Virus record (IMG/VR): IMGVR_UViG_3300042945_001277
Coordinates: 1 to 32,157 of that record
Source: a virus
DNA: 32,157 bases
Strand: one strand, 5' to 3'
In this document: positions 799 through 29,837 of the stretch, one piece after another
Numbering within the stretch: the first letter of the stretch is position 1
How the letters are laid out: each line of letters begins with the position of its first letter
The notes under the pieces: model-generated
The model's database searches: none
Told to the model about the DNA's origin: nothing
The model's input: only the letters and a program-made list of their open reading frames with translations
Position numbers and translations under genes: made by a program

Positions 799-1279
799 TC
801 ATTTTTTTCACGGTTAATGGTACAAATAAATTTACGATTGGTAAACCACCGGTAACATAATAGACACCGATGAATTTTTGTTTTGCCATACGCAATAGTG
901 AATCTATATTTAAAACATTATAGTTCATAGAATGTTTTATCATATTAAACACATCTTTATTTTTTGCTTCAAGAGAGTTTGGATTATTTACATATTCATT
1001 TACACTATCTGTTAAATTCAGTATATTGGATCCATTGACTTCACCAACATAAAGATTTTTAGTTTTAACCATCCTTTCAGTTTTGTTCAAGTCTGTATAA
1101 TAAAATACTCTTGGAACATCTGAAATTTTGTAGTCATTATTTGTCCAAAAAGATTTATTTTTTATAGCAATTTGAGGATCAAGTATTACTGAATCACCCA
1201 TTTCATTTTGTGTATAATGATATAACTTAACTGATCCAGAAAGTGTAATCTCCTCTTTAATCAAATCTTTAAGCTTCAC
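791..1279 (-). CDS. Leader-bearing protein of unknown function; candidate internal-head protein
   Basis: I place the start at GTG 1279, preceded by GGGAG at good spacing. The protein then begins MKLKDLIKEE and fits the leader shared by other genes here; earlier in-frame TTG (1312) and ATG (1303) starts lie deep inside metK. The frame gives 162 residues and overlaps metK by 11 bases, suggesting translational coupling. After the leader come motifs VKLYHYT, ILDP and PRVFYYTDLN that resemble a conserved phage hypothetical family I cannot name. An ADP-ribosyltransferase-like fold (compare the injected T4 Alt) is speculation only, since I cannot identify an R-S-E or H-Y-E triad. The [ILV]-x-E site after residue 9 would be the predicted cleavage point. 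Unlike other leader genes it has no late-type promoter immediately upstream. Confidence 0.7.
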   Translation of the reverse strand: MKLKDLIKEEITLSGSVKLYHYTQNEMGDSVILDPQIAIKNKSFWTNNDYKISDVPRVFYYTDLNKTERMVKTKNLYVGEVNGSNILNLTDSVNEYVNNPNSLEAKNKDVFNMIKHSMNYNVLNIDSLLRMAKQKFIGVYYVTGGLPIVNLFVPLTVKKMNA

Positions 1280-2411
1280 CAATTTTCTCCCATTCAAATT
1301 CATTATTTCCAAAGTGGCCTTTCTTTGCCGTTTGTAAATAAATAGGAGTTTTTAATTTTAATCTTTCTATTATTTTACTTGGTGTCAAATCTTGTTCTGT
1401 TAAATTTCCAAGACCATATTCCTTTCCTGTTGTTGGATCGTAGATTCTATATGAAACTGGATATTCTTCTCCGATTGCATAAGCAAGTTGAACCTTAATC
1501 TTCTTTGCTTCTGGATTTTCATTCAGAGTTTTCTTGGCAATATATCTTGCCATATAAGCGGCACTTCTATCAACTTTACTTGGATCCTTTCCAGAGAAAG
1601 CACCACCACCAATCTCACAATCAGCACCATATTGATCAACAACAATCTTTCTACCAGTCAATCCACAATCCGAAATAGGTCCACCAATATTCCATTCACC
1701 GGCAGGATTGATAAAATATCTTGTATTTTTTGTGAACAAACTTCTAAGACTTGATGGTATTTCTCTGAATACTTCTGGTAGTATCATTGAATGAAACATA
1801 GTTTGTAATCTTTCCAAGTTGATTTTTTCACTATGACACATAGACATAACAACATTATCAACGGAAACGGCTCTACCATTTTCAAATACAATAGATACTT
1901 GACTCTTCATATCAGGACGAAGAATATCTTCATTCTTATAGTGATTTTTAACAAGTTTGTAAGCAACATCGATTAGTTTCTTTGCTAAGTAAATTGGTAT
2001 TGGCATTCCATTTGGTGTTTCTCTTGTAGCGAATCCAAACATGATTCCTTGATCACCCGCAGTTGTTATTTCACCTTTATCAACTGCACCGTTTATTTCA
2101 GGTGATTGTGCACTCAAATTAAAATGTATGTTGCAGGTATAACCATTAAAACCAATTTCTTTTGTAGTATAACCAATATCACAAATAGTTTTACGAACTA
2201 TTCCAGTCAAGTCCACTTTTGATAAAGAAGCAGTTGATGTTATTTCACCAGCAACATATACATCAGTATCTTTTACCATCACTTCACAGGCAACTTTTGA
2301 ATTTGGATCCTTACTTAAATAAGCATCCAATACTGCATCTGAAATCTGGTCAGCAATTTTATCAGGATGACCAGGTGAAACATATTCCGAAGTCCATACA
2401 TATTTACTCAT
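1269..2411 (-). CDS. metK: S-adenosylmethionine synthetase (MetK)
   Basis: The 380-residue protein is essentially full length for MetK (about 385-400 residues). It would make S-adenosylmethionine from methionine and ATP. Visible motifs are GHPDK (14-18) in the ATP site, a TAGDQGIMFG segment (about 117-126), the NPAGEWNIGGP and GLTGRKIVVD segments (about 235-258), and the phosphate loop GGGAFSGKD (about 268-276) followed by KVDRSAAY. All key regions look intact. The ATG overlaps the upstream stop by one base (TAATG), placing it in the gp44-gp62-Nmad1 operon. Phage MetK is uncommon. With three SPPY methyltransferases in the same window, the simplest role is raising the methyl-donor supply for DNA modification; this role is inferred. 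Confidence 0.97.
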   Translation of the reverse strand: MSKYVWTSEYVSPGHPDKIADQISDAVLDAYLSKDPNSKVACEVMVKDTDVYVAGEITSTASLSKVDLTGIVRKTICDIGYTTKEIGFNGYTCNIHFNLSAQSPEINGAVDKGEITTAGDQGIMFGFATRETPNGMPIPIYLAKKLIDVAYKLVKNHYKNEDILRPDMKSQVSIVFENGRAVSVDNVVMSMCHSEKINLERLQTMFHSMILPEVFREIPSSLRSLFTKNTRYFINPAGEWNIGGPISDCGLTGRKIVVDQYGADCEIGGGAFSGKDPSKVDRSAAYMARYIAKKTLNENPEAKKIKVQLAYAIGEEYPVSYRIYDPTTGKEYGLGNLTEQDLTPSKIIERLKLKTPIYLQTAKKGHFGNNEFEWEKIGEA

Positions 2412-4605: not shown

Positions 4606-5361
4606 TTAGCCATTGTATTCCTCATACTTAGGACCAAAATTAAAGCTATCTGCTTGTATATTTTTTAGTGCCCATTTTATTTCAGACTTTCCAATTTTAT
4701 TGTTATTACTGGCCATAAAAGTTTCCTTGACAATTTTTGGGCCACCTTTGAATGAAGTAAGGAGGTTGAAAGAACAATCAAAAACACCATTAACGGTAGC
4801 TGGTGATCCTTCGAGTGATACCAGATTATTGTAATTACACATAAATGTTTTGCAAGATGATGGAGCACCTTTCAAAGATTTCAAAGAATTACCTGAAACA
4901 TTATATCGCCCACCAACTTTTTTTGGACAACCTTCCAATGATATTAGTTTTGTATTATCGCTAATTTCAACATCACCATCAACAACTTCTGGTGCACCTT
5001 TCAATGATTTTATTTGAGTTCCCTGACACATAAAATCACCATGAACTATTTTCGGAGAACCCTCTAATGACAAAAGAGTGGAATTTTTACAAATAAAGTC
5101 TCCCTTTACTTCGCCAAATTTAACAAGAAGTTGTTTCATTCCTGTTTTTTCAAGATGTAATCCAACATTCACATCTACCGTTAAATCTGCATTTATTTTA
5201 CAATATTTAAGAGGAATTGACATTTCTTTAAGAGCAACTTTCACTTCTTGTATTGTTGTTGGAAAACTTATCTCTTTTAATACTACATTCTCCGCAAATC
5301 CAGTTCTGAATTTGTCTTGAATGTTTCTACCTTCTTGTACCAGATCTTTCATCTTTATCAT
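4606..5361 (-). CDS. Leader-bearing protein with leucine-rich-like repeats
   Basis: The 251-residue protein begins MIKMKDLVQEGRNIQDKF, the shared leader with a V-Q-E/G site. From about residue 90 it has six repeats of 20-22 residues with consensus [LI]xS[LF][EK]G[ASCG]P followed by a xxGxFxC/N strand. This is a leucine-rich-like beta-solenoid repeat seen in phage and bacterial hypotheticals. Such solenoids usually bind other proteins, but no partner is evident. The gene stands alone between a late-type promoter (5396-5405) and a strong hairpin terminator (4542-4574), with GGAG before the ATG. I infer a late-expressed protein packaged in the head and delivered to the host. The leader itself may be removed on maturation. 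Confidence 0.8.
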   Translation of the reverse strand: MIKMKDLVQEGRNIQDKFRTGFAENVVLKEISFPTTIQEVKVALKEMSIPLKYCKINADLTVDVNVGLHLEKTGMKQLLVKFGEVKGDFICKNSTLLSLEGSPKIVHGDFMCQGTQIKSLKGAPEVVDGDVEISDNTKLISLEGCPKKVGGRYNVSGNSLKSLKGAPSSCKTFMCNYNNLVSLEGSPATVNGVFDCSFNLLTSFKGGPKIVKETFMASNNNKIGKSEIKWALKNIQADSFNFGPKYEEYNG

Positions 5362-13242: not shown

Positions 13243-13890
13243 TTAAAGTTGAATATCTTTCCAATTTCCATTTGCAATAGTTTTTGTTGCCCACTTTCCC
13301 ATATTGTTTGCAACTTCGTAATAATTGTAAACATCGGTTTGTTCTAACATTGTATTTTCAAAAGTAAATGGTCTACCTTTTACTTTTGTCATAAACTCTC
13401 CACCTTTGCCCATATTTCTATCATTAAAAGTTTGTGTTTTATGATATCCAGGAAAAGAATTTGGACATTCATTCGTTCCAATTAAAACAGATCCCTTGCC
13501 ACCTTTTGGTATAAAAAGAATAGAATCTTGCATATACTTTTCACCCAATCTCATTAAATCTGATTTCAATGTTCCCTTATCCTTTAAATCGACTACGAAA
13601 TATACATCCTCCCTCACTTCTTTTGCATCCTGTGTTCCATAGTTTTCGATGTAAGCACCATCAACTCTTGTTACACCATATCCAAGAACTTCAATATTTG
13701 CATACAACTGTCTATTTCTTTTTTTATTATCATCAAATGAATACTCGGCATCATCTGGACCACCACATCCTTCTTTTGAACGAAATGCTGTTATTGTTCC
13801 ACAGTCGTGTTCGTCCATGTGTTTTGTCAAACGAGAAAGCCCACTCTCATTTATATTTTTCTTTGGTAATAAATCTTTTAACTTTGCCAT
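13243..13890 (-). CDS. Leader-bearing protein, possible DUF3293-like domain
   Basis: The 215-residue protein begins MAKLKDLLPKK, close to the shared leader, and has an I-N-E/S site at about residues 13-15. Next comes GTITAFRS, then an N-rich KKRNRQLYANI helix, GYGVTRVDGAYIEN, a VYFVVD strand and a late LGEKYMQDSILFI segment. This order resembles the DUF3293 pattern (ITA- ... N---L---L---G ... E-SF-V ... QD---F), whose function is unknown; the match is from memory and partial. A late-type TATATTTATAC motif lies just upstream (13921-13930). I infer a late-expressed, possibly packaged protein. Confidence 0.6.
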   Translation of the reverse strand: MAKLKDLLPKKNINESGLSRLTKHMDEHDCGTITAFRSKEGCGGPDDAEYSFDDNKKRNRQLYANIEVLGYGVTRVDGAYIENYGTQDAKEVREDVYFVVDLKDKGTLKSDLMRLGEKYMQDSILFIPKGGKGSVLIGTNECPNSFPGYHKTQTFNDRNMGKGGEFMTKVKGRPFTFENTMLEQTDVYNYYEVANNMGKWATKTIANGNWKDIQL

Positions 13891-19193: not shown

Positions 19194-20069
19194 TTAAAGT
19201 ATTTCAGGTATCGGTAGTTTTGCTTTTGTTACATTTTGTATAAACAATTCACGAATTGTCTGCTTAACATCCGAAACCTTACTTGGTTTATTAAAAACAA
19301 TATCATATAGCTTTTCAAAAGATGATATATCTTCTATTGTATATTCCTCTCCCAAAAAGAAATCGACTAATTCTTCTGGTACTTGTGTTAAAAACGTTTC
19401 ACTTCCTGCGATAGTTTTTCCGGCTTTTATTATACTACCTCCTTTTCCGGCATAACTTTTTGTTAATTGATAAACACCTTTATCATGTCTCAATACATAT
19501 TTACGAATTTCTATTGGAATACCTGCATCAGATTGCTTTAGTATTTCATATTTGAATCCAGCAATAACAGAAGACAATAAAAAGTTTCTATATGCAGATT
19601 TATATTTTGATTCACCCTTTGAATAATCTGGTGAGGAATAAATGAATTTTGTCCAATCCATGTTACTTGACAACATAAAATCAACTTGAACTGGTTCATC
19701 GGTAACTCTATCTACTATTGGATATGGTATTGACACTTGTGAAAATCCACGCAAAGGTTCCACATCATATCCCATTTCTGTTAATTTATTTATCAACCAA
19801 TCTAAAACATCACTCAACTTTAGTTTATTTGCAGATGCAAGTTGATCAATTGAAACACCTATGTCCAAATCACCAGATAATTGTTCTTCACTTTTTTTAC
19901 CAGCACTTCCCAATAAAAAGCAATCCGTTCCAAGTCCAATAAGACCGAGTGGTTTCAATACATCTGTCTCAATTTTTGAGACAGTTGCAGAGACTTCACT
20001 CTGTTTTATACCAACAACATCTGGAAATAAATTTCCACCTTCTAATAATATATCTTTTAATTTAATCAT
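19194..20069 (-). CDS. Leader-bearing nucleotidyltransferase-fold protein
   Basis: The 291-residue protein begins MIKLKDILLEGG, the shared leader with an L-L-E/G site. It then shows a polymerase-beta-type nucleotidyltransferase core: LLGSAGK with Gly54-Ser55, DLDIGVSID with Asp67 and Asp69, and a third acidic residue in VQVDFM (Asp130). Such enzymes transfer NMP to tRNA, protein, antibiotics or other targets; the substrate is not known. An adenylating toxin-like or host-modifying role after injection is one hypothesis. All three carboxylates are present, so it looks active. A late-type motif ends 5 bases before the ATG. The 59-residue gene follows. Confidence 0.8.
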   Translation of the reverse strand: MIKLKDILLEGGNLFPDVVGIKQSEVSATVSKIETDVLKPLGLIGLGTDCFLLGSAGKKSEEQLSGDLDIGVSIDQLASANKLKLSDVLDWLINKLTEMGYDVEPLRGFSQVSIPYPIVDRVTDEPVQVDFMLSSNMDWTKFIYSSPDYSKGESKYKSAYRNFLLSSVIAGFKYEILKQSDAGIPIEIRKYVLRHDKGVYQLTKSYAGKGGSIIKAGKTIAGSETFLTQVPEELVDFFLGEEYTIEDISSFEKLYDIVFNKPSKVSDVKQTIRELFIQNVTKAKLPIPEIL

Positions 20070-22061: not shown

Positions 22062-22643
22062 TTAATGATTTCCCACATTCCAAATTTTACCATCCCACCA
22101 TTCAAAGTTGGGATAATGTGATTTGTAATGGAATTGTTCATACCATTCACCAATATAAAGATATGGATATGAATGATCTACTAATTCATTTAAGAAAAAA
22201 TAACAAGTCATTGGTGTTATACCTTCTCTATGCAACTTTCCACCTACTACAAGTGAAAAATATGGTATTTCACCGAACCAATTAAGAACACCAAATACAC
22301 TATTATTAAAATAATATATTTCGTGATCAAACGATAAAACAGTGTCCAAGTATTCTTCTATCATAGGATCGTAAAGATACTTTGAACTTTCAAAGATTTT
22401 TTGATAATCACCGGATTTGCTTATTCTAATCTTAGCAAGTTGATATTGTCTTCTTGTAGAAATAGGAGCAATATTCAATCTTGATGATCTCGATTGATAC
22501 CATTCACCGTTTGATGTTGGCAACCAACCCATTTCAAAAAGATATTGTGGAGTTTCATTCTCCGGAGTACAAAACAGTTCACATAAATCAGAGTGATTTG
22601 TCAAATCATACTGACCGTTCAGATGACTGATTCGTATTTTCAT
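22062..22643 (-). CDS. Possible GNAT/arginyl-tRNA-protein transferase-like protein
   Basis: The 193-residue protein has a C-terminal pattern HSYPYLYIGEWYEQFHYKSHYPNF EWW that resembles a small phage family related to the aminoacyl-tRNA-protein transferase (ATE) fold, where YVYLGYW precedes a K-KF-P- segment. If right, it would transfer an amino acid or acyl group onto a protein N-terminus or other amine. The match is from memory and covers only the C-terminal half, so a different GNAT-type role is possible. It overlaps the upstream gene by 38 bases, with GAGAGG before the ATG. A terminator follows. Confidence 0.5.
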   Translation of the reverse strand: MKIRISHLNGQYDLTNHSDLCELFCTPENETPQYLFEMGWLPTSNGEWYQSRSSRLNIAPISTRRQYQLAKIRISKSGDYQKIFESSKYLYDPMIEEYLDTVLSFDHEIYYFNNSVFGVLNWFGEIPYFSLVVGGKLHREGITPMTCYFFLNELVDHSYPYLYIGEWYEQFHYKSHYPNFEWWDGKIWNVGNH

Positions 22644-23328
22644 TTAACCTCTCGTTATAGTGCTTTGACCGTTCTTCATTAGATTCACCGGCATCTAAAT
22701 CTGTATGGTCATAATTCATGTTTTCCGTGTCCGGCGTAACCCATCGGTGATTCCGTTCAGCTGTCCATAATGTATTATTATACATTCTGTCTACTACAAT
22801 ACGTTGTTTTGTAGTAAATGCTGGATCGTGAAGCAAAAAACGATTATTGGGTTGTATGGCAAAATTACCATTGTCCATCATTATTACATGGCCACACTTA
22901 TGTTGTGAGGGGTATTCGGAAAATAAATAATTAGTATCTCCCGAATCTGTGCTAGCAGCCCAGTCTAACGTAAATAAATATCTACCTTTGTATTCTTTTC
23001 TTCGTCTTGAAATAAATTTTACTACTTTATTTTTGAAGTAAGGAAATTCTGTTGCAGATACGTGATAAGAAAAAGAATCCCATAAAACCAATTCATCTAA
23101 TTCTTGTTCCGGAGCATCTTCTTTCCAACAAAAGGCATGAATGGGCATTCTCCACCAAATACCACCATCCTCCATAACAAAATGAAACAGTGGTGATTGA
23201 CCAGGTATTGATGACATTCCTATGATTAGACATGGAAATTTTTTATCGAACATATCTTTTTGGTCACGAAGAAAATTACCACGAACATATGCATCAATAA
23301 TTGGTATTGGTGTATTTAGATAAGCCAT
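22606..23328 (-). CDS. Conserved phage protein of unknown function
   Basis: The 240-residue protein resembles a family found in diverse phages, recognised by IPGQSPLFHFVMEDGGIWWRMPIHAFCW, LVLWDSFSYHVS, YLFTLDWA and GNFAIQPNNRFLLHDPAF. I know no activity for it. It has many Trp, His and aromatic residues but no enzyme motif I can name. The C-terminal roughly 40 residues are acidic and low in complexity. The ATG overlaps the gp41 stop by one base, so it is part of the flap nuclease-gp41 operon. Confidence 0.75.
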   Translation of the reverse strand: MAYLNTPIPIIDAYVRGNFLRDQKDMFDKKFPCLIIGMSSIPGQSPLFHFVMEDGGIWWRMPIHAFCWKEDAPEQELDELVLWDSFSYHVSATEFPYFKNKVVKFISRRRKEYKGRYLFTLDWAASTDSGDTNYLFSEYPSQHKCGHVIMMDNGNFAIQPNNRFLLHDPAFTTKQRIVVDRMYNNTLWTAERNHRWVTPDTENMNYDHTDLDAGESNEERSKHYNERLNENTNQSSERSV

Positions 23329-24680
23329 TAGAAACCTTCTAATTCTTTGAATTTCTGTGAAAGAGCCTTTTTAACATTTACATCACCCTTCATTGAAACA
23401 GTCACACTTTGACCCATATCTGATGATGGTTCGTATATTTCAATATGACCAGTCATTGTATTTATTTTACTTGGAAACGTCATACCGTCTGGACCAAAAC
23501 GATTTTTAACTATATGCCATCTACCGGTTCCACCAACTTTGTCATTGAGCTTTCTTGACAGCGACATGATAAAGTCTGCAATCATAATCTTATTATATGA
23601 TTCTGAAACCTTACCACCTTCGATAACATCATCTTCAAGGGCAGAACGATTTGCCTGTGAAGCAGTCCATATAGGGATTTCATAAGTTCCACCGATACCA
23701 CGTAGGTCTTCGTAAATATCATTTAGTTCCAATCTCTTATCGGTTGCCTTTGCAGGTCTAATCAAATCTGCATAATCAATAATAACCAAATCAGGTTTTT
23801 TACCTTGACTAATACATTTCTCAATGTGTGACGATATAGTATTTATACTTGCAGTTTTAGTTGGATAATACTTTACAATCAATTCACCTTTAAGAGTTTC
23901 CATTGTGGAACGAATTTTTTCTTGAGCGTGTTCTTCGGAAAGATTTTGAAATGCAATCTTTGTAAAATAAGCATCAAATCTTCTTGCAACATAAAATTGA
24001 TTTAATTCTAATGTATAATATATTACTGTCTTTCCTTCACGAACGGCATTTGCTGCAATACTAACCAATCCCCAAGATTTACCGCCACCGGCAGGAGCAA
24101 TAATAACACCAAGTTCACCGGCAGCTAATCCACCATTTGTAATATCATCTACAACATTCCATCCAGTAGCAACACAAGTTCTTGCACCTTCTTCATATCT
24201 TGCAATAATATCAACAAGATATTCGTGACCAATATCTTTGTCTGTTCCCGCTTTCAATGCAGTATCAATTTTCTTTTTTATCAAATCATATTTACCACTC
24301 TTAAGCAAATCAACAGATTCAATGATTGCAACTTTCATCTTTTGGTTTTTACAAAATTCTAAAGTTGCATTTTTTACATATTCTGCATCAGAACTGTCTT
24401 TATATTTTTTTGTTTCCGTAAGAGAATCAACAATAGTAGATTTCAAAACTTTATCATCTACTGCAAGTATTTCGGATTTGAAAACCTCTTGTGTTGGTGC
24501 ACTACGATAACGATTGTAATATGATATTACCTTTTCAACAATCCAAGAATTTGCTTGTGATTCAAAATAATTTGGTTCTATAATATCGGAGACTTGTTGT
24601 AGAAATGATTTATCAGATAACAATGCGGTAATTACTTTCGTTTGAAAAGTATGACCGAATTGTGATAGATTATCCTGCAT
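23328..24680 (-). CDS. 41: Replicative DNA helicase, gp41/DnaB-like
   Basis: The 450-residue hexameric helicase has Walker A APAGGGKS (195-202), Walker B LVIIDYADL (298-306) and the C-terminal segment RWHIVKNRFGPDG typical of DnaB-family helicases (K-R-G/GxG). The N-terminal domain (about 1-150) is helical, as in T4 gp41 (475 residues). It unwinds DNA ahead of gp43 and interacts with the primase, which is not in this window. It overlaps the flap nuclease end by 11 bases, and the two are co-transcribed from the promoter at 25749-25780. Confidence 0.93.
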   Translation of the reverse strand: MQDNLSQFGHTFQTKVITALLSDKSFLQQVSDIIEPNYFESQANSWIVEKVISYYNRYRSAPTQEVFKSEILAVDDKVLKSTIVDSLTETKKYKDSSDAEYVKNATLEFCKNQKMKVAIIESVDLLKSGKYDLIKKKIDTALKAGTDKDIGHEYLVDIIARYEEGARTCVATGWNVVDDITNGGLAAGELGVIIAPAGGGKSWGLVSIAANAVREGKTVIYYTLELNQFYVARRFDAYFTKIAFQNLSEEHAQEKIRSTMETLKGELIVKYYPTKTASINTISSHIEKCISQGKKPDLVIIDYADLIRPAKATDKRLELNDIYEDLRGIGGTYEIPIWTASQANRSALEDDVIEGGKVSESYNKIMIADFIMSLSRKLNDKVGGTGRWHIVKNRFGPDGMTFPSKINTMTGHIEIYEPSSDMGQSVTVSMKGDVNVKKALSQKFKELEGF

Positions 24681-25716
24681 TTTTATTCCTAAACTTGTTT
24701 AATTGTGTAAAATTCTTTTTCAACCATTCATCCCAATCCGCAATTATGGATTGTAACTTGTCTTGTAAATACAATTTACCCAACTCCACTGTATTCATAG
24801 AATCAATCTCACCATCAACTAAACCACGAATATTTGATTTATGACTCTGTGAAATATCAACATCATGTAATTGCATGATGTCATAATTCGTTTGTAGTTT
24901 ATTTGTACTATGTTTAAGTGTTTGTAGTGCTTTTAATTTACCGTCATATAATTTACAAATTTCTATGAACTTTTCCAAATTTATTTTTTCTTTTTCTGAT
25001 AATTGTGGGAAATGTTTTTTTATTGTTGTTTCGCCAACACCATGAATACCAGCAACATTATCACTTTTATCACCCATTAGTGCCTTGTATATGATATAGT
25101 TCTCACACCATATACCAGTTTCTTCAAGTAGATTTTCCGGATTATACATTTTCTTTTTTGTTGGCAAATACACATTAACCCTATCTGAAACTAATTGTAG
25201 GAAGTCTCTGTCATTAGAAAGTATTACCACTTTTTCTTTTAAATACGAAGAAAGATATGCAATAACATCATCTGCTTCTATATTATCTATCATTATTATA
25301 GTTACTGGCAGATTTTGTAGATAAGAGAAAACCCGCATCATTTGATGTTTCATTGCCGCCTGTTCATCATCAATACCTTCAAATCCTACAACACGGTTCA
25401 ACTTTGATTTTATTGCCCTACCTTCTTTGTAGTTTGAATATATTTTTTTTCTTCGATGTGAACCACCCTTTCCATCAAAGACAACAACAACCCGCGTGGG
25501 ATTAACCATACGGATTGTTGCTCCAAGCGACTTTAAGAAACCAGATAGACCACCGACATGAATACCATCTTCGTTCAATGTTGGGATGGCAGAAAAGGTG
25601 CGTATAAATAAATTCATCCCATCAACAATCAAAACCTTACTATCACGATGTAGGTTTCCTTGTTCGGCTTTTTCCGTTTCTATTTCTTGTAAAAGTCTTT
25701 GATATTTTTTGTTCAT
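24670..25716 (-). CDS. rnh: 5'-3' exonuclease/flap endonuclease (T4 RNase H-like)
   Basis: The frame is open from 25773, but I place the start at ATG 25716 (MNKKYQRLLQEIE) because the early-type promoter lies inside the first 19 codons of the longer frame. From this start there are 348 residues. Metal-binding acidic residues appear in VLIVDGMNLF (Asp32), VVVVFDG, IEADDVIAYL and VVILSNDRDFLQL. The helix-3-turn-helix is MGDKSDNVAGIHGVGETT. The enzyme removes RNA primers and flaps from Okazaki fragments, as T4 rnh does. T4 RNase H is 305 residues. The promoter placement supports the shorter start. Confidence 0.93.
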   Translation of the reverse strand: MNKKYQRLLQEIETEKAEQGNLHRDSKVLIVDGMNLFIRTFSAIPTLNEDGIHVGGLSGFLKSLGATIRMVNPTRVVVVFDGKGGSHRRKKIYSNYKEGRAIKSKLNRVVGFEGIDDEQAAMKHQMMRVFSYLQNLPVTIIMIDNIEADDVIAYLSSYLKEKVVILSNDRDFLQLVSDRVNVYLPTKKKMYNPENLLEETGIWCENYIIYKALMGDKSDNVAGIHGVGETTIKKHFPQLSEKEKINLEKFIEICKLYDGKLKALQTLKHSTNKLQTNYDIMQLHDVDISQSHKSNIRGLVDGEIDSMNTVELGKLYLQDKLQSIIADWDEWLKKNFTQLNKFRNKNAG

Positions 25717-25748
25717 TGTAATCAATTCCATATATCGTTTTATCAATA

Positions 25749-25847: not shown

Positions 25848-26252
25848 TTAAATGTAATCATTTGCAGATATGCCTAATTTTGTAGCCAACTCGCGTATTT
25901 CTTGTTCTATCTCTCTTGATTGTTGGGGTCCAGCATATTCTTCATTGTAAATAACCAACCTTGATAATTCATGTACCATTTCAAAAAATGCATTACCTTT
26001 CATTTTTTTTATTTGTTGCTCTAATGATTTTATTTGCATTTCAGCTTCTTTTGTGTCTTCCGTATTTCCGCTGTATTCCGCTTCTTTACGGAAAATCACA
26101 TAATCTTTAATCAATTCTTTTATATCGGTGGATTGACCTGAAATTTCAGGAGGTACATTTCCGAAAGGTGCTTCATTCATTTTTTTGTTAAACTTTTCAT
26201 GTATGGATCTCCCTTCTTGCACTAGATCCTTTAATTTTATCGTCTTACCCAT
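25848..26252 (-). CDS. Leader-bearing all-helical small protein
   Basis: The 134-residue protein begins MGKTIKLKDLVQEGRSIHEKF, the shared leader with a V-Q-E/G site. The first 22 residues closely match the protein starting at 5361 (KDLVQEGRNIQDKF). The rest is charged and helical (EAEMQIKSLEQQIKKMKGN, then LSRLVIYN), with probable coiled coil around residues 65-85 and no enzyme motif. Function is unknown. It stands alone between a late-type promoter (26286-26295) and a terminator (25782-25809), with GGAG before the ATG. It is a good candidate for a small internal-head protein. Confidence 0.72.
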   Translation of the reverse strand: MGKTIKLKDLVQEGRSIHEKFNKKMNEAPFGNVPPEISGQSTDIKELIKDYVIFRKEAEYSGNTEDTKEAEMQIKSLEQQIKKMKGNAFFEMVHELSRLVIYNEEYAGPQQSREIEQEIRELATKLGISANDYI

Positions 26253-28247: not shown

Positions 28248-28282
28248 GATGTAACTCCTAATGTGTAATAAAAATAATGATT

Positions 28283-28296
28283 AACCACTAATGGTT
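28283..28296. promoter_or_regulatory. Inverted repeat in the gp32 5' untranslated region
   Basis: AACCA-CTAA-TGGTT forms a 5-base stem between the gp32 promoter and its ATG. T4 gp32 represses its own translation by binding a structured leader. This could be a similar site or a protein operator; nothing further can be read from it. Confidence 0.4.
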
Positions 28297-28311
28297 ATTG
28301 TTTAATGTATA

Positions 28312-28342
28312 CTAATATACTAATTTAATGTTTAATAATCAA
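28312..28342 (-). promoter_or_regulatory. Early-type promoter for gp32-uvsX
   Basis: The minus strand reads TTG, 20 bases, then TATATTAGTATAC. It shares TATATTAG with the gp44 and flap nuclease promoters. Confidence 0.65.
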
Positions 28343-28351
28343 GCAATTTTT

Positions 28352-29182
28352 TTATTTTTTTAATAAGTCTTTCAACTTAATGCCAACCGATTCTGGTAGT
28401 TTTTCAGTATTGGTGGCACTATTCTTCCAATCTGGAGCATCATCGGTTTGCGGCATAACCTCTCTTGATGGTGCATCTTCTACTGGCTGATTGTTTTCAT
28501 TCATCTTTTGGACATTAGACCAAATGTAGTTAGCAATCTTTTCTGGACTATCACCTTTTTCATATTTTGCAAATGTCTGAACAACTTCATCCGTTATGTT
28601 ATCTACCACGTATTTTTTTAATACATTCTCTTCTATTGTAAATAAATTTATACCGCCACCTTCTGCACTTGGGATTTCACCCAATTCTGCACCAATACCT
28701 AACTGTGTTGTTTTTAACGCCTCTATTGGTTTTTTAACATTTGTCAAATCCATTGAACTTATTTTTGCATATGGATTTATACAATAAAGCTGTGACCAAC
28801 GATGATGGCCGTCAATAATAAACTGTCCTCCACCACCGGTTACTATTGGTCTGTTATCAACGGTAACTATACCACCACGAAGATATGTCTCTGTATTGGA
28901 TGCATCTTTTAATGGGTAACTCAATGATTTACTCAATACAACTTCGTTTTGAGTTGGTTTCAATTTAATACATTGAGGAGAAATCTTACTTGTTTGAACC
29001 GGAGATTCCGATGATAATGATTTAATGGCAGCCAAAAATTTAGGATCTTCTATTTTATCACCAAGTTCTTTTACAAAAGTAACATAATCTTTTTTCAAAA
29101 TTCTTTTTAATTCATCTCTTGTATCTTCTTCGTTTATTTTTATTTTGATTTCTTTTATTAAGTTTACTAATGAATATTTCAT
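28352..29182 (-). CDS. ParB/sulfiredoxin-fold protein with leader-like ends
   Basis: The 276-residue protein has the ParB-like nuclease-fold motif FIIDGHHRWSQLY (121-133), with GHHR at 125-128. Such domains act in DNA binding, nicking, ATP/CTP use or kinase-like reactions; which one applies here is not known. The N-terminus MKYSLVNLIKEIK is a weaker match to the shared leader, with an I-K-E site. Remarkably, the C-terminus ends GIKLKDLLKK, a near copy of the leader core. The middle has an acidic, Pro/Asp-rich stretch (about 230-265). It is the last gene of the late-type operon starting at 30850. Confidence 0.75.
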   Translation of the reverse strand: MKYSLVNLIKEIKIKINEEDTRDELKRILKKDYVTFVKELGDKIEDPKFLAAIKSLSSESPVQTSKISPQCIKLKPTQNEVVLSKSLSYPLKDASNTETYLRGGIVTVDNRPIVTGGGGQFIIDGHHRWSQLYCINPYAKISSMDLTNVKKPIEALKTTQLGIGAELGEIPSAEGGGINLFTIEENVLKKYVVDNITDEVVQTFAKYEKGDSPEKIANYIWSNVQKMNENNQPVEDAPSREVMPQTDDAPDWKNSATNTEKLPESVGIKLKDLLKK

Positions 29183-29192
29183 AGAATTTTCT

Positions 29193-29837
29193 CTATACAG
29201 TTTTTACAAAATCTTCTTGTATTTTTAGTTCTTCGTCTGTTGCCTTTCCAGTTGAACCCCAATCTGGAAGCACTGACATTATGTGGAATGCTTTAGCACT
29301 TCTAACATCTTTAATCCATTTTCCGGATGTTGGGTTTTCTTTGTTTTTTAATATACTGACATGATTTAGTTCAGGAAATACGTAAAGTGGCATACCACTT
29401 TCTTTCGCAAGAATAACAGAATGCTTTAGTGGAACTATATTATCACTACCACCGTGAATTATTGCACCTTCTCCACTAATTTCAGATCCAGTCAATGATA
29501 TAGTAGGCCATTGTCTATTCCACGCAGGAGCAACTAAATAAACTGTATCTGGTTTTTTAGCACCCATTGATAATGCTTGAAGAAGTATTGCACCGCCACG
29601 AGAATATGCAATAAGAGTTTTCGGCGTTTCTTCATTTAAATATAATATCGCCTTCTCAATGTCTTCTTTTGATATTTTACTCGAATCAGAAAATGCAGGA
29701 CATCCAGTATCTTGATCCGGATTTGTCCATTCAACATTGCAGGTATCAACTCTCATATCTTTTGGTTTCATACCAAAACCATGAAACGCCCCCTTATCTA
29801 TGCCAATCTCTGTTAATATATCTCTTATTTTTATCAT
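29193..29837 (-). CDS. Leader-bearing alpha/beta hydrolase
   Basis: The 214-residue protein begins MIKIRDILTEIG, the shared leader with an L-T-E/I site. An alpha/beta hydrolase triad can be assigned: nucleophile Ser79 in AYSRGGA (a variant of G-x-S-x-G), Asp132 in HGGSDNIVP, and His159 in ELNHVS. The strand-loop context (TLIAYSRGG, TVYLVAPA) fits a small esterase, lipase or peptidase. The substrate is unknown; phage relatives could attack the envelope or modify host components after injection. It overlaps the upstream gene by 4 bases (ATGA) and is followed 10 bases later by the ParB-like gene. Confidence 0.8.
   Translation of the reverse strand: MIKIRDILTEIGIDKGAFHGFGMKPKDMRVDTCNVEWTNPDQDTGCPAFSDSSKISKEDIEKAILYLNEETPKTLIAYSRGGAILLQALSMGAKKPDTVYLVAPAWNRQWPTISLTGSEISGEGAIIHGGSDNIVPLKHSVILAKESGMPLYVFPELNHVSILKNKENPTSGKWIKDVRSAKAFHIMSVLPDWGSTGKATDEELKIQEDFVKTV

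Follow-up and report, generated by a model that had tools for sequence, protein, structure and literature searches.

The question raised by this locus is why a ParB-like phage protein should carry leader-like sequence at both of its ends. The stretch of DNA analyzed here (the window) is a virus record of 32,157 bases from a T4-like phage, and the gene, which is proposed to encode an internal protein with a ParB/Srx fold, lies on its minus strand at 28352..29182 (stop codon included). The open reading frame encodes 276 amino acids and neighbors genes for a UvsX-like recombinase and an ssDNA-binding protein. A sequence-only reading of the window had noted a loose leader, MKYSLVNLIKE, at the N-terminus and a decapeptide, GIKLKDLLKK, directly before the stop codon, and had offered two explanations for the latter: a remnant of recombination between leader cassettes, or a second docking peptide. 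Both peptides were found again in the translation, and the C-terminal one agrees with the leader core MIKLKDLLKE at eight of ten positions, with G in place of M and K in place of E.

The likeness of the tail to the leaders was scored with a matrix derived from 13 N-terminal leaders of the window and its relative G002, none of which came from the ParB-like protein. The heptamer IKLKDLL of the tail ranked first among the 9,922 heptamers of 37 window proteins, above the true leaders too, with a score of 21.7 vs 9.0 for the top non-leader heptamer, and a heptamer as good as the tail occurred in none of 300 shuffled proteomes. Chance as the source of the match was ruled out by these two results, which confirm that the tail is leader-like. 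The leader set was also compared with the C-termini of 822 genes predicted in seven phage records by a longest-ORF rule, spurious genes included, where the ParB-like proteins of the window, G001, and G002 took the first three ranks (scores of 21.6, 21.6, and 18.6) and the next C-terminus scored 10.3. A matrix trained on scaffold proteins placed the window tail at rank 143 of 822, outside the scaffold-type C-terminal peptides. In sequence, the window tail is thus similar to the cargo leaders and not to the scaffold.

Based on the matrix ranks and low pLDDT, the proposed docking peptide comprises the last 12 residues, SVGIKLKDLLKK (residues 265-276; 28355..28390, minus strand). A candidate protease site, L-P-E (residues 262-264; 28391..28399, minus strand), stands directly before it, proposed from the sequence and its recurrence in homologues, so that the end of the protein reads ...NTEKLPE/SVGIKLKDLLKK. 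This L-P-E had been overlooked in the sequence-only reading; L/I-x-E is described as the cut site of the T4 prohead protease gp21 (PMC9026906). The tail carries the targeting core but not the Glu with which the leaders end, and has the processing motif in front instead. Since the terminal Glu is missing, a cut is predicted to fall before the tail and not after it. A scan of the collection with a degenerate nucleotide pattern covering the tail and its stop codon found 13 stretches: seven ParB-like homologues, one other protein (L053, 155 aa, ending VIKLKNLLKK), and five that were tiny frames or had no stop codon there. A widespread C-terminal cassette was rejected, as seven of the 13 stretches were ParB-like homologues, and the exact tail is almost bound to one clade. 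Additionally, a protein encoded in the head operon of immuto, between the portal and protease genes (L055 13168-14250), ends with the KLKDLL-like sequence ESKSLKDLL.

The N-terminal leader extends farther than had been noted, to I-N-E at residue 18. The proposed capsid-targeting sequence covers residues 1-18, MKYSLVNLIKEIKIKINE (29129..29182, minus strand), as suggested by the recurrence of L/I-x-E and low pLDDT, and the front of the protein with its candidate cuts reads MKYSLVNLIKE/IKIKINE/EDT. The first candidate site, I-K-E (residues 9-11; 29150..29158, minus strand), was recognized in the sequence from the T4 gp21 motif (PMC9026906), and the second, I-N-E (residues 16-18; 29129..29137, minus strand), occupies the register common to the homologues: all nine sequences of an alignment have E18, and in each it closes an [IL]-x-E motif. 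The leader itself is variable among homologues, with L/I-x-E nearly always kept. For example, the leaders of the close relatives L002-L008 were replaced wholesale (MIRLKALLNE, MIKLSNILKE, and M[PS]NKLPLLKSIL[KN]E). A scaffold N-terminus was considered as the origin of the long leader in L093-L099, but a profile of 11 scaffold N-termini searched against 1,281 sequences found L099 at an E-value of 0.042 with GroEL above it at 0.0022, and the match was kept as a lead only.

Seven window genes, the ParB-like one included, carry a leader of the MIKLKDILLE type or a loose form of it, and the other six are unrelated. These six leaders, all on the minus strand, are MIKIRDILTE (29808..29837) of the neighboring gene 29193-29837, which has a weak alpha/beta-hydrolase match, MGKTIKLKDLVQE (26214..26252) of gene 25848-26252, MIKLKDILLE (20040..20069) of gene 19194-20069, MAKLKDLLPKKNINE (13846..13890) of gene 13243-13890, MIKMKDLVQE (5332..5361) of gene 4606-5361, and LVKLKDLIKE (1253..1282) near the start of ORF 791-1312. 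The leaders MIKLKDILLE, MIKIRDILTE, and MIKLKDILKE have Leu at position 8 and Glu at position 10, the two positions reported to control processing of the T4 capsid-targeting sequence (PMC9026906); hence, the leaders share its geometry. The protein that begins with MAKLKDLLPKKNINE belongs to the S-AdoMet lyase family (PF23780, 41.5 bits, cut-off 28), and such a leader makes this putative anti-restriction enzyme a candidate for packaging and ejection. In G002 (22097-25729; L021 2597-6229), groEL is followed by five successive genes that all have KLKDLL-type leaders (MIKLIDILNE, MIRLKPLLEQ, MIKLKDILTE, MNIPKLKTLLEN, and MIKLKNLLEE). This run is a possible cargo cluster, where a Pfam match was found in the last gene only (DUF7178).

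For the body of the protein, the label "ParB-like" given in the sequence-only reading was fair by structure comparison, which indicated a ParB/Srx fold, but was not reached by Pfam: ParBc_2 (PF08857) matched residues 73-134 with 18.6 bits, below the gathering cut-off of 23.6, and nine of 33 family members had a match at E<=0.01. The ParB/Srx-fold domain spans about residues 64-172 (28667..28993, minus strand), as delimited by the VIA-align ranges and the ParBc_2 match, and includes the motif IDGHHRWS (residues 123-130; 28793..28816, minus strand), which is invariant in all 33 alignment rows. An AlphaFold2 model with 31 homologues as input had a mean pLDDT of 89.2, with values below 50 at residues 1-3, 8-14, and 265-276 and a short helix at 268-275 in the tail; both terminal peptides are thus loose, flexible ends of the model. 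The top Foldseek match in the PDB was a pNOB8-like ParB N-domain (E 0.035), the top BFVD match was named ParB/Sulfiredoxin (E 5.4e-22), and 29 of the 30 VIA-align matches listed were ParB, Noc, PadC, KorB, SbnI, SerK, Srx, or similar, where the top Z-score of 5.1 (5k5a) is modest. By sequence, no solved structure was found at E<=10 with the single protein as query, and a profile gave weak and short matches only, including one to a free serine kinase (E 0.86). Proteins of the ParB-CTPase fold, among which are serine kinases, are described as binding CTP, ATP, or GTP depending on the family (PMC12704722), and the ParB-like domains of phage polyvalent proteins have been predicted to be packaged and injected nucleases regulated by NTP (PMC5512222). 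The favored interpretation of the body is an ejected protein that would bind NTP and perhaps act as a nuclease.

Homologues were collected by a first search (13 loci) and an alignment search, which contributed 80 loci (the best 80 of 222 viral relatives) and two more in cellular genome contigs. The resulting 84 loci yielded 60 distinct complete proteins and 32 representatives of less than 80% identity, after loci without a stop codon or with an open 5' end (L090, L103, L109, and L112) were left out. Start codons were assigned by a simple rule, except for L007, L106, L107, and L108, where they were set by hand, and the counts include L121, L122, L127, L131, L132, and L134, which may have wrong starts or extra domains. 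A strict L/I-x-E ending within the first 25 residues was found in 27 of the 32 representatives, with a background of 14.6% in equal windows within the cores of the same proteins. Similarly, a strict site at 9-21 residues before the C-terminus was found in 20 representatives and was absent in the other 12, where the core background was 9.0% and shuffled tails had such a site in a mean of 4.1 and a maximum of 12 of the 32 (1,000 runs). Among all 60 proteins, the N-terminal and C-terminal sites occurred in 54 and 45, respectively.

The idea of a second docking peptide gained support from these homologues. The tail GIKLK[DN]LLKK was kept in all seven close relatives (L002-L008), and most of the other homologues had different basic tails at the same place behind L/I-x-E. 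More distant tails followed the same plan, such as KLPE/AVVRRLKELMKYNKK, KMPE/GVVKRLKKLMNYNK, DIKE/ITRLQKLAGIK, and KTE/SSIKLKDLIKRNK, of which M-P-E and K-T-E depart from the strict motif. The tails of the 60 proteins included 26 of the type RLKxLxxYN, eight KLKDL, eight RLxxLAG, and 18 others, and the last 12 residues had a net charge of +2.4 on average vs +0.06 in the core. The sequence-only reading had asked whether the C-terminal peptide persists where the N-terminal leader is absent. A full tail was indeed present in L102 and L106-L108, in which the leader is shortened to about 6-8 residues (MKIRIKE, MRIRIKE, or MRIRIIKE). Unrelated C-termini with no repeated peptide, which that reading had named as evidence against its claim, were seen in a minority only: L010, L015, L132, and L101 have no tail, with L101 ending at the site itself (TDKMPK), and the tail is therefore dispensable in these proteins.

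The genomic context of the gene connects it in part to head assembly. The 32-kb window is a fragment in which neither head genes nor Peptidase_S77 (the gp21-type prohead protease) were recognized. Counting fragments, this protease was found in four of seven and 12 of 17 records that contain a homologue, and it is present in G002, the longest close relative. At most of the 84 loci, the window among them, the ParB-like gene stands beside ssb and recA. At seven loci (L102, L104-L108, and L113), it follows the protease gene either immediately or at a distance of up to about 350 bases, and at six of these it precedes the scaffold and major capsid genes. Of the other loci, six are near a portal gene and three near a major capsid gene.

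A likeness to the scaffold was observed in one of these clades, and this scaffold-type end beside a scaffold gene is also in favor of docking. The ParB-like proteins of L102 and L105-L108 end with RLKKLAGIQ, RLQKLAGIK, RLKKLAGL, RLQKLAGLK, or again RLKKLAGL, and the scaffold encoded downstream ends with RRMQQLAGIIK or RRMQQLAGIVK. By a scaffold-only matrix, the tail of the G004 ParB-like protein ranked fourth of the 822 C-termini, among the scaffolds. All 15 scaffolds carried R-[LMFW]-x-x-L-A-[GN] near the C-terminus, preceded by L/I-x-E in 14 (for example, L055 15216-16457, L031 10207-11328, and L025 9197-10348). A looser pattern of tail plus site, composed only once the tails were known, matched five scaffolds, four ParB-like proteins, and one other among the 822 genes. 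As judged from the sequences, the leader-like tail of the window and the scaffold-like tail of G004 are joined by their position, the preceding site, and a series of intermediates (KLKDLLKK, KLKDVLAYKK, RLKELMKYN, RLKELARYN, and RLQKLAGLK), and by no single matrix. The scaffold of herpesviruses has a C-terminal tail that the maturation protease frees at a cleavage site, a parallel to the C-terminal scaffold peptide that would be released in these phages.

Several other genes were recorded along with these. The scaffold gene in immuto is annotated as "DNA polymerase phi-like protein". A head-region protein of G006 (58649-59398; L029 149-898) ends with QLSE/SLQLNRWKVLAGIK, a scaffold-type tail with its site, and a small protein of G007 (L152 12514-12813) begins with MNKQRMQKLAGLLKE, where the scaffold-type motif serves as the N-terminal leader; the same phage carries MIKLKDIL-type leaders too. 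In Mel-JY01, the gene between protease and scaffold (22429-23595; L035 2929-4095) has a C-terminal half that appears ADP-ribosyltransferase-like by eye, and it occupies the place held by the ParB-like gene in L102 and L105-L108.

Of the two explanations offered by the sequence-only reading, the recombination remnant was not supported. A leader cassette that had become fused in frame with the 3' end of the ParB-like gene, and had drifted since without function, would account for a tail that is almost a leader. It would also suit L103 (4021 bases) and L109 (4256 bases), where the frame continues past the ParB body and enters a close copy of the N-terminal peptide (KKQILSEEF[KQ]RMQKLAG) that extends to the contig end; these frames, which make an old fusion conceivable, may represent a fusion, a lost stop codon, or an assembly fault, and fusion to a following leader gene could be one way for such a tail to start. 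However, the DNA of the tail resembles six window leaders no more than expected from the amino acids and the codon usage (P 0.15-0.96), and a protease-site motif has been kept before tails of very different sequence. In a tree of 35 core sequences (from 60), the KLKDL tails had at least two origins and the RLxxLAG tails at least four label changes, and such repeated gain argues for use and against drift. Within this tree, L123 grouped with Mel-JY01 (95/75), whose protein has the N-terminal leader and no tail, and runs on with TESSIKLKDLIKRNK where the proteins of Mel-JY01, L015, and L132 stop, while long branches make its placement less sure. In the sister clade, pS and pN were 0.579 and 0.164 in the tail, 0.550 and 0.107 in the core, and 0.605 and 0.256 in the N-terminal leader, by which the tail is under purifying selection there. 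A functionless remnant is accordingly very improbable. In the clade of the window, pS was 0.090 in the tail vs 0.455 in the core; with synonymous sites conserved too, selection on the peptide cannot be claimed for this clade, and DNA-level constraint or a recent spread could be the cause of the uniform tail. The conservation among close relatives covers the tail codons and the DNA just past the stop codon (28253-28390 of the window), synonymous sites included; the tail may share this DNA with a regulatory element that precedes ssb.

Two further alternatives accept a functional tail or a role in the head. The N-terminal targeting sequence may be real and the tail a basic helix that binds DNA or a partner and merely resembles a leader, with no docking. 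The basic character of the last 12 residues agrees with this, as do the rank of the window tail in the scaffold matrix (143 of 822) and the loss of the tail in some homologues, but it leaves unexplained the protease-site motif ahead of the tail in 20 of 32 representatives, the scaffold-type tails adjoining a scaffold gene, and the tail being the best leader match of all heptamers in the window; we consider it unlikely. Alternatively, the protein could be no cargo at all but a minor assembly protein of the core or scaffold with a coincidental ParB/Srx fold, destined for degradation along with the core. Such a role is compatible with the scaffold-type tails of L102 and L105-L108 and the head-operon location in L102, L104-L108, and L113. 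It is at odds with a gene that mostly accompanies ssb and recA instead of head genes, with the same leader type on enzymes such as the S-AdoMet lyase, and with a body that, unlike proteins cut to pieces, is strongly conserved between the sites and invariant at IDGHHRWS, and it appears quite improbable.

In the preferred reading, the product of the gene is probably an internal (ejection) protein of a T4-like phage, in which a ParB/Srx body lies between two cleavable docking peptides. This reading draws, from sequence data, on the peptides, the site motifs and their recurrence, the scaffold likeness of one clade, and the partial head-gene context, and it predicts binding, cleavage, packaging, ejection, and an activity of the body. 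At the front, a capsid-targeting sequence of the T4 IPIII type would bind the prohead core and be removed by the prohead protease at L/I-x-E. The back would dock through a 12-residue basic amphipathic peptide with the core motif I-K-L-K-D-L-L and no terminal Glu, with the L-P-E cut site ahead of it, at a position that in relatives holds the type of peptide found at the C-terminus of the scaffold protein. The cargo would thereby be anchored by both termini in the assembling core. At maturation, the protease would trim both ends, and the freed body would remain in the head and then enter the next host, where the ParB/Srx domain would act, most likely by NTP binding, nuclease activity, or both.

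Parts of this plan are known from T4, where N-terminal targeting peptides and their cleavage are established and Alt is trimmed at both ends. As in IPI-IPIII, unrelated cargo proteins share a leader that is about 10 residues long and terminates in L/I-x-E (PMC9026906, PMC3012670), and the same protease family is encoded by relatives of the window genome. Unlike IPI-IPIII, for which the cited texts describe an N-terminal leader only, the window protein adds a C-terminal leader-like peptide, whose cut site lies toward the body of the protein. The closest parallel for two trimmed ends is T4 Alt, an ejected enzyme whose propeptides at both termini are removed by the prohead protease (PMC9026906). 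The window protein likewise has a protease motif near both termini (IKE and INE; LPE 12 residues before the end), where cleavage is predicted, but within the final 60 residues of Alt, the sole strict L/I-x-E stands 52 residues from the end and is followed by no leader-like or scaffold-like tail. The T4 core proteins were rejected as a model of the tail: gp22 ends with VYAKVASRF and has no LAG motif, and gp21 has ITE and LAE near its end. A C-terminal propeptide of the SPN3US protease gp245 has been proposed to target the prohead core (PMC7411985, PMC10052503); it differs in its length of 64 residues and its place on the protease itself, and the available text mentions no leader motif. The DdrB-like ParB domains of polyvalent proteins belong to the same ParB/Srx superfamily and occur in proteins predicted or known to be head-packed and ejected (PMC5512222), although these proteins are large and multidomain and the window protein is short. 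In the text available from open-licence papers, no phage internal protein was found with a C-terminal targeting peptide that resembles a leader. As far as this literature shows, three features are new: a C-terminal peptide that repeats a cargo leader, the scaffold-like form of that peptide in a sister clade, and, in this phage group, a conserved scaffold C-terminus bounded by a protease site.

The presence of two tags, each beside a predicted protease site, suggests that both termini of some cargo are anchored during particle assembly. More tentatively, T4-like phages might use a two-ended loading code, where cargo termini mimic leader or scaffold peptides and a protease site delimits each of them. 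The cargo would thereby be integrated into the core at two points and cleanly freed at maturation. The conserved, cleavable scaffold peptide R-[LMFW]-x-x-L-A-G would serve as prototype for tags at the C-terminus, and leader-type and scaffold-type tags would swap ends and proteins by repeated convergent evolution. With the tail a copy of the leader in one clade and of the scaffold end in another, the family would offer a direct handle on core, scaffold, and shell binding. If true, this would provide a rule to spot ejected proteins from their C-termini, as well as a second end for the loading of reporter proteins into phage heads.
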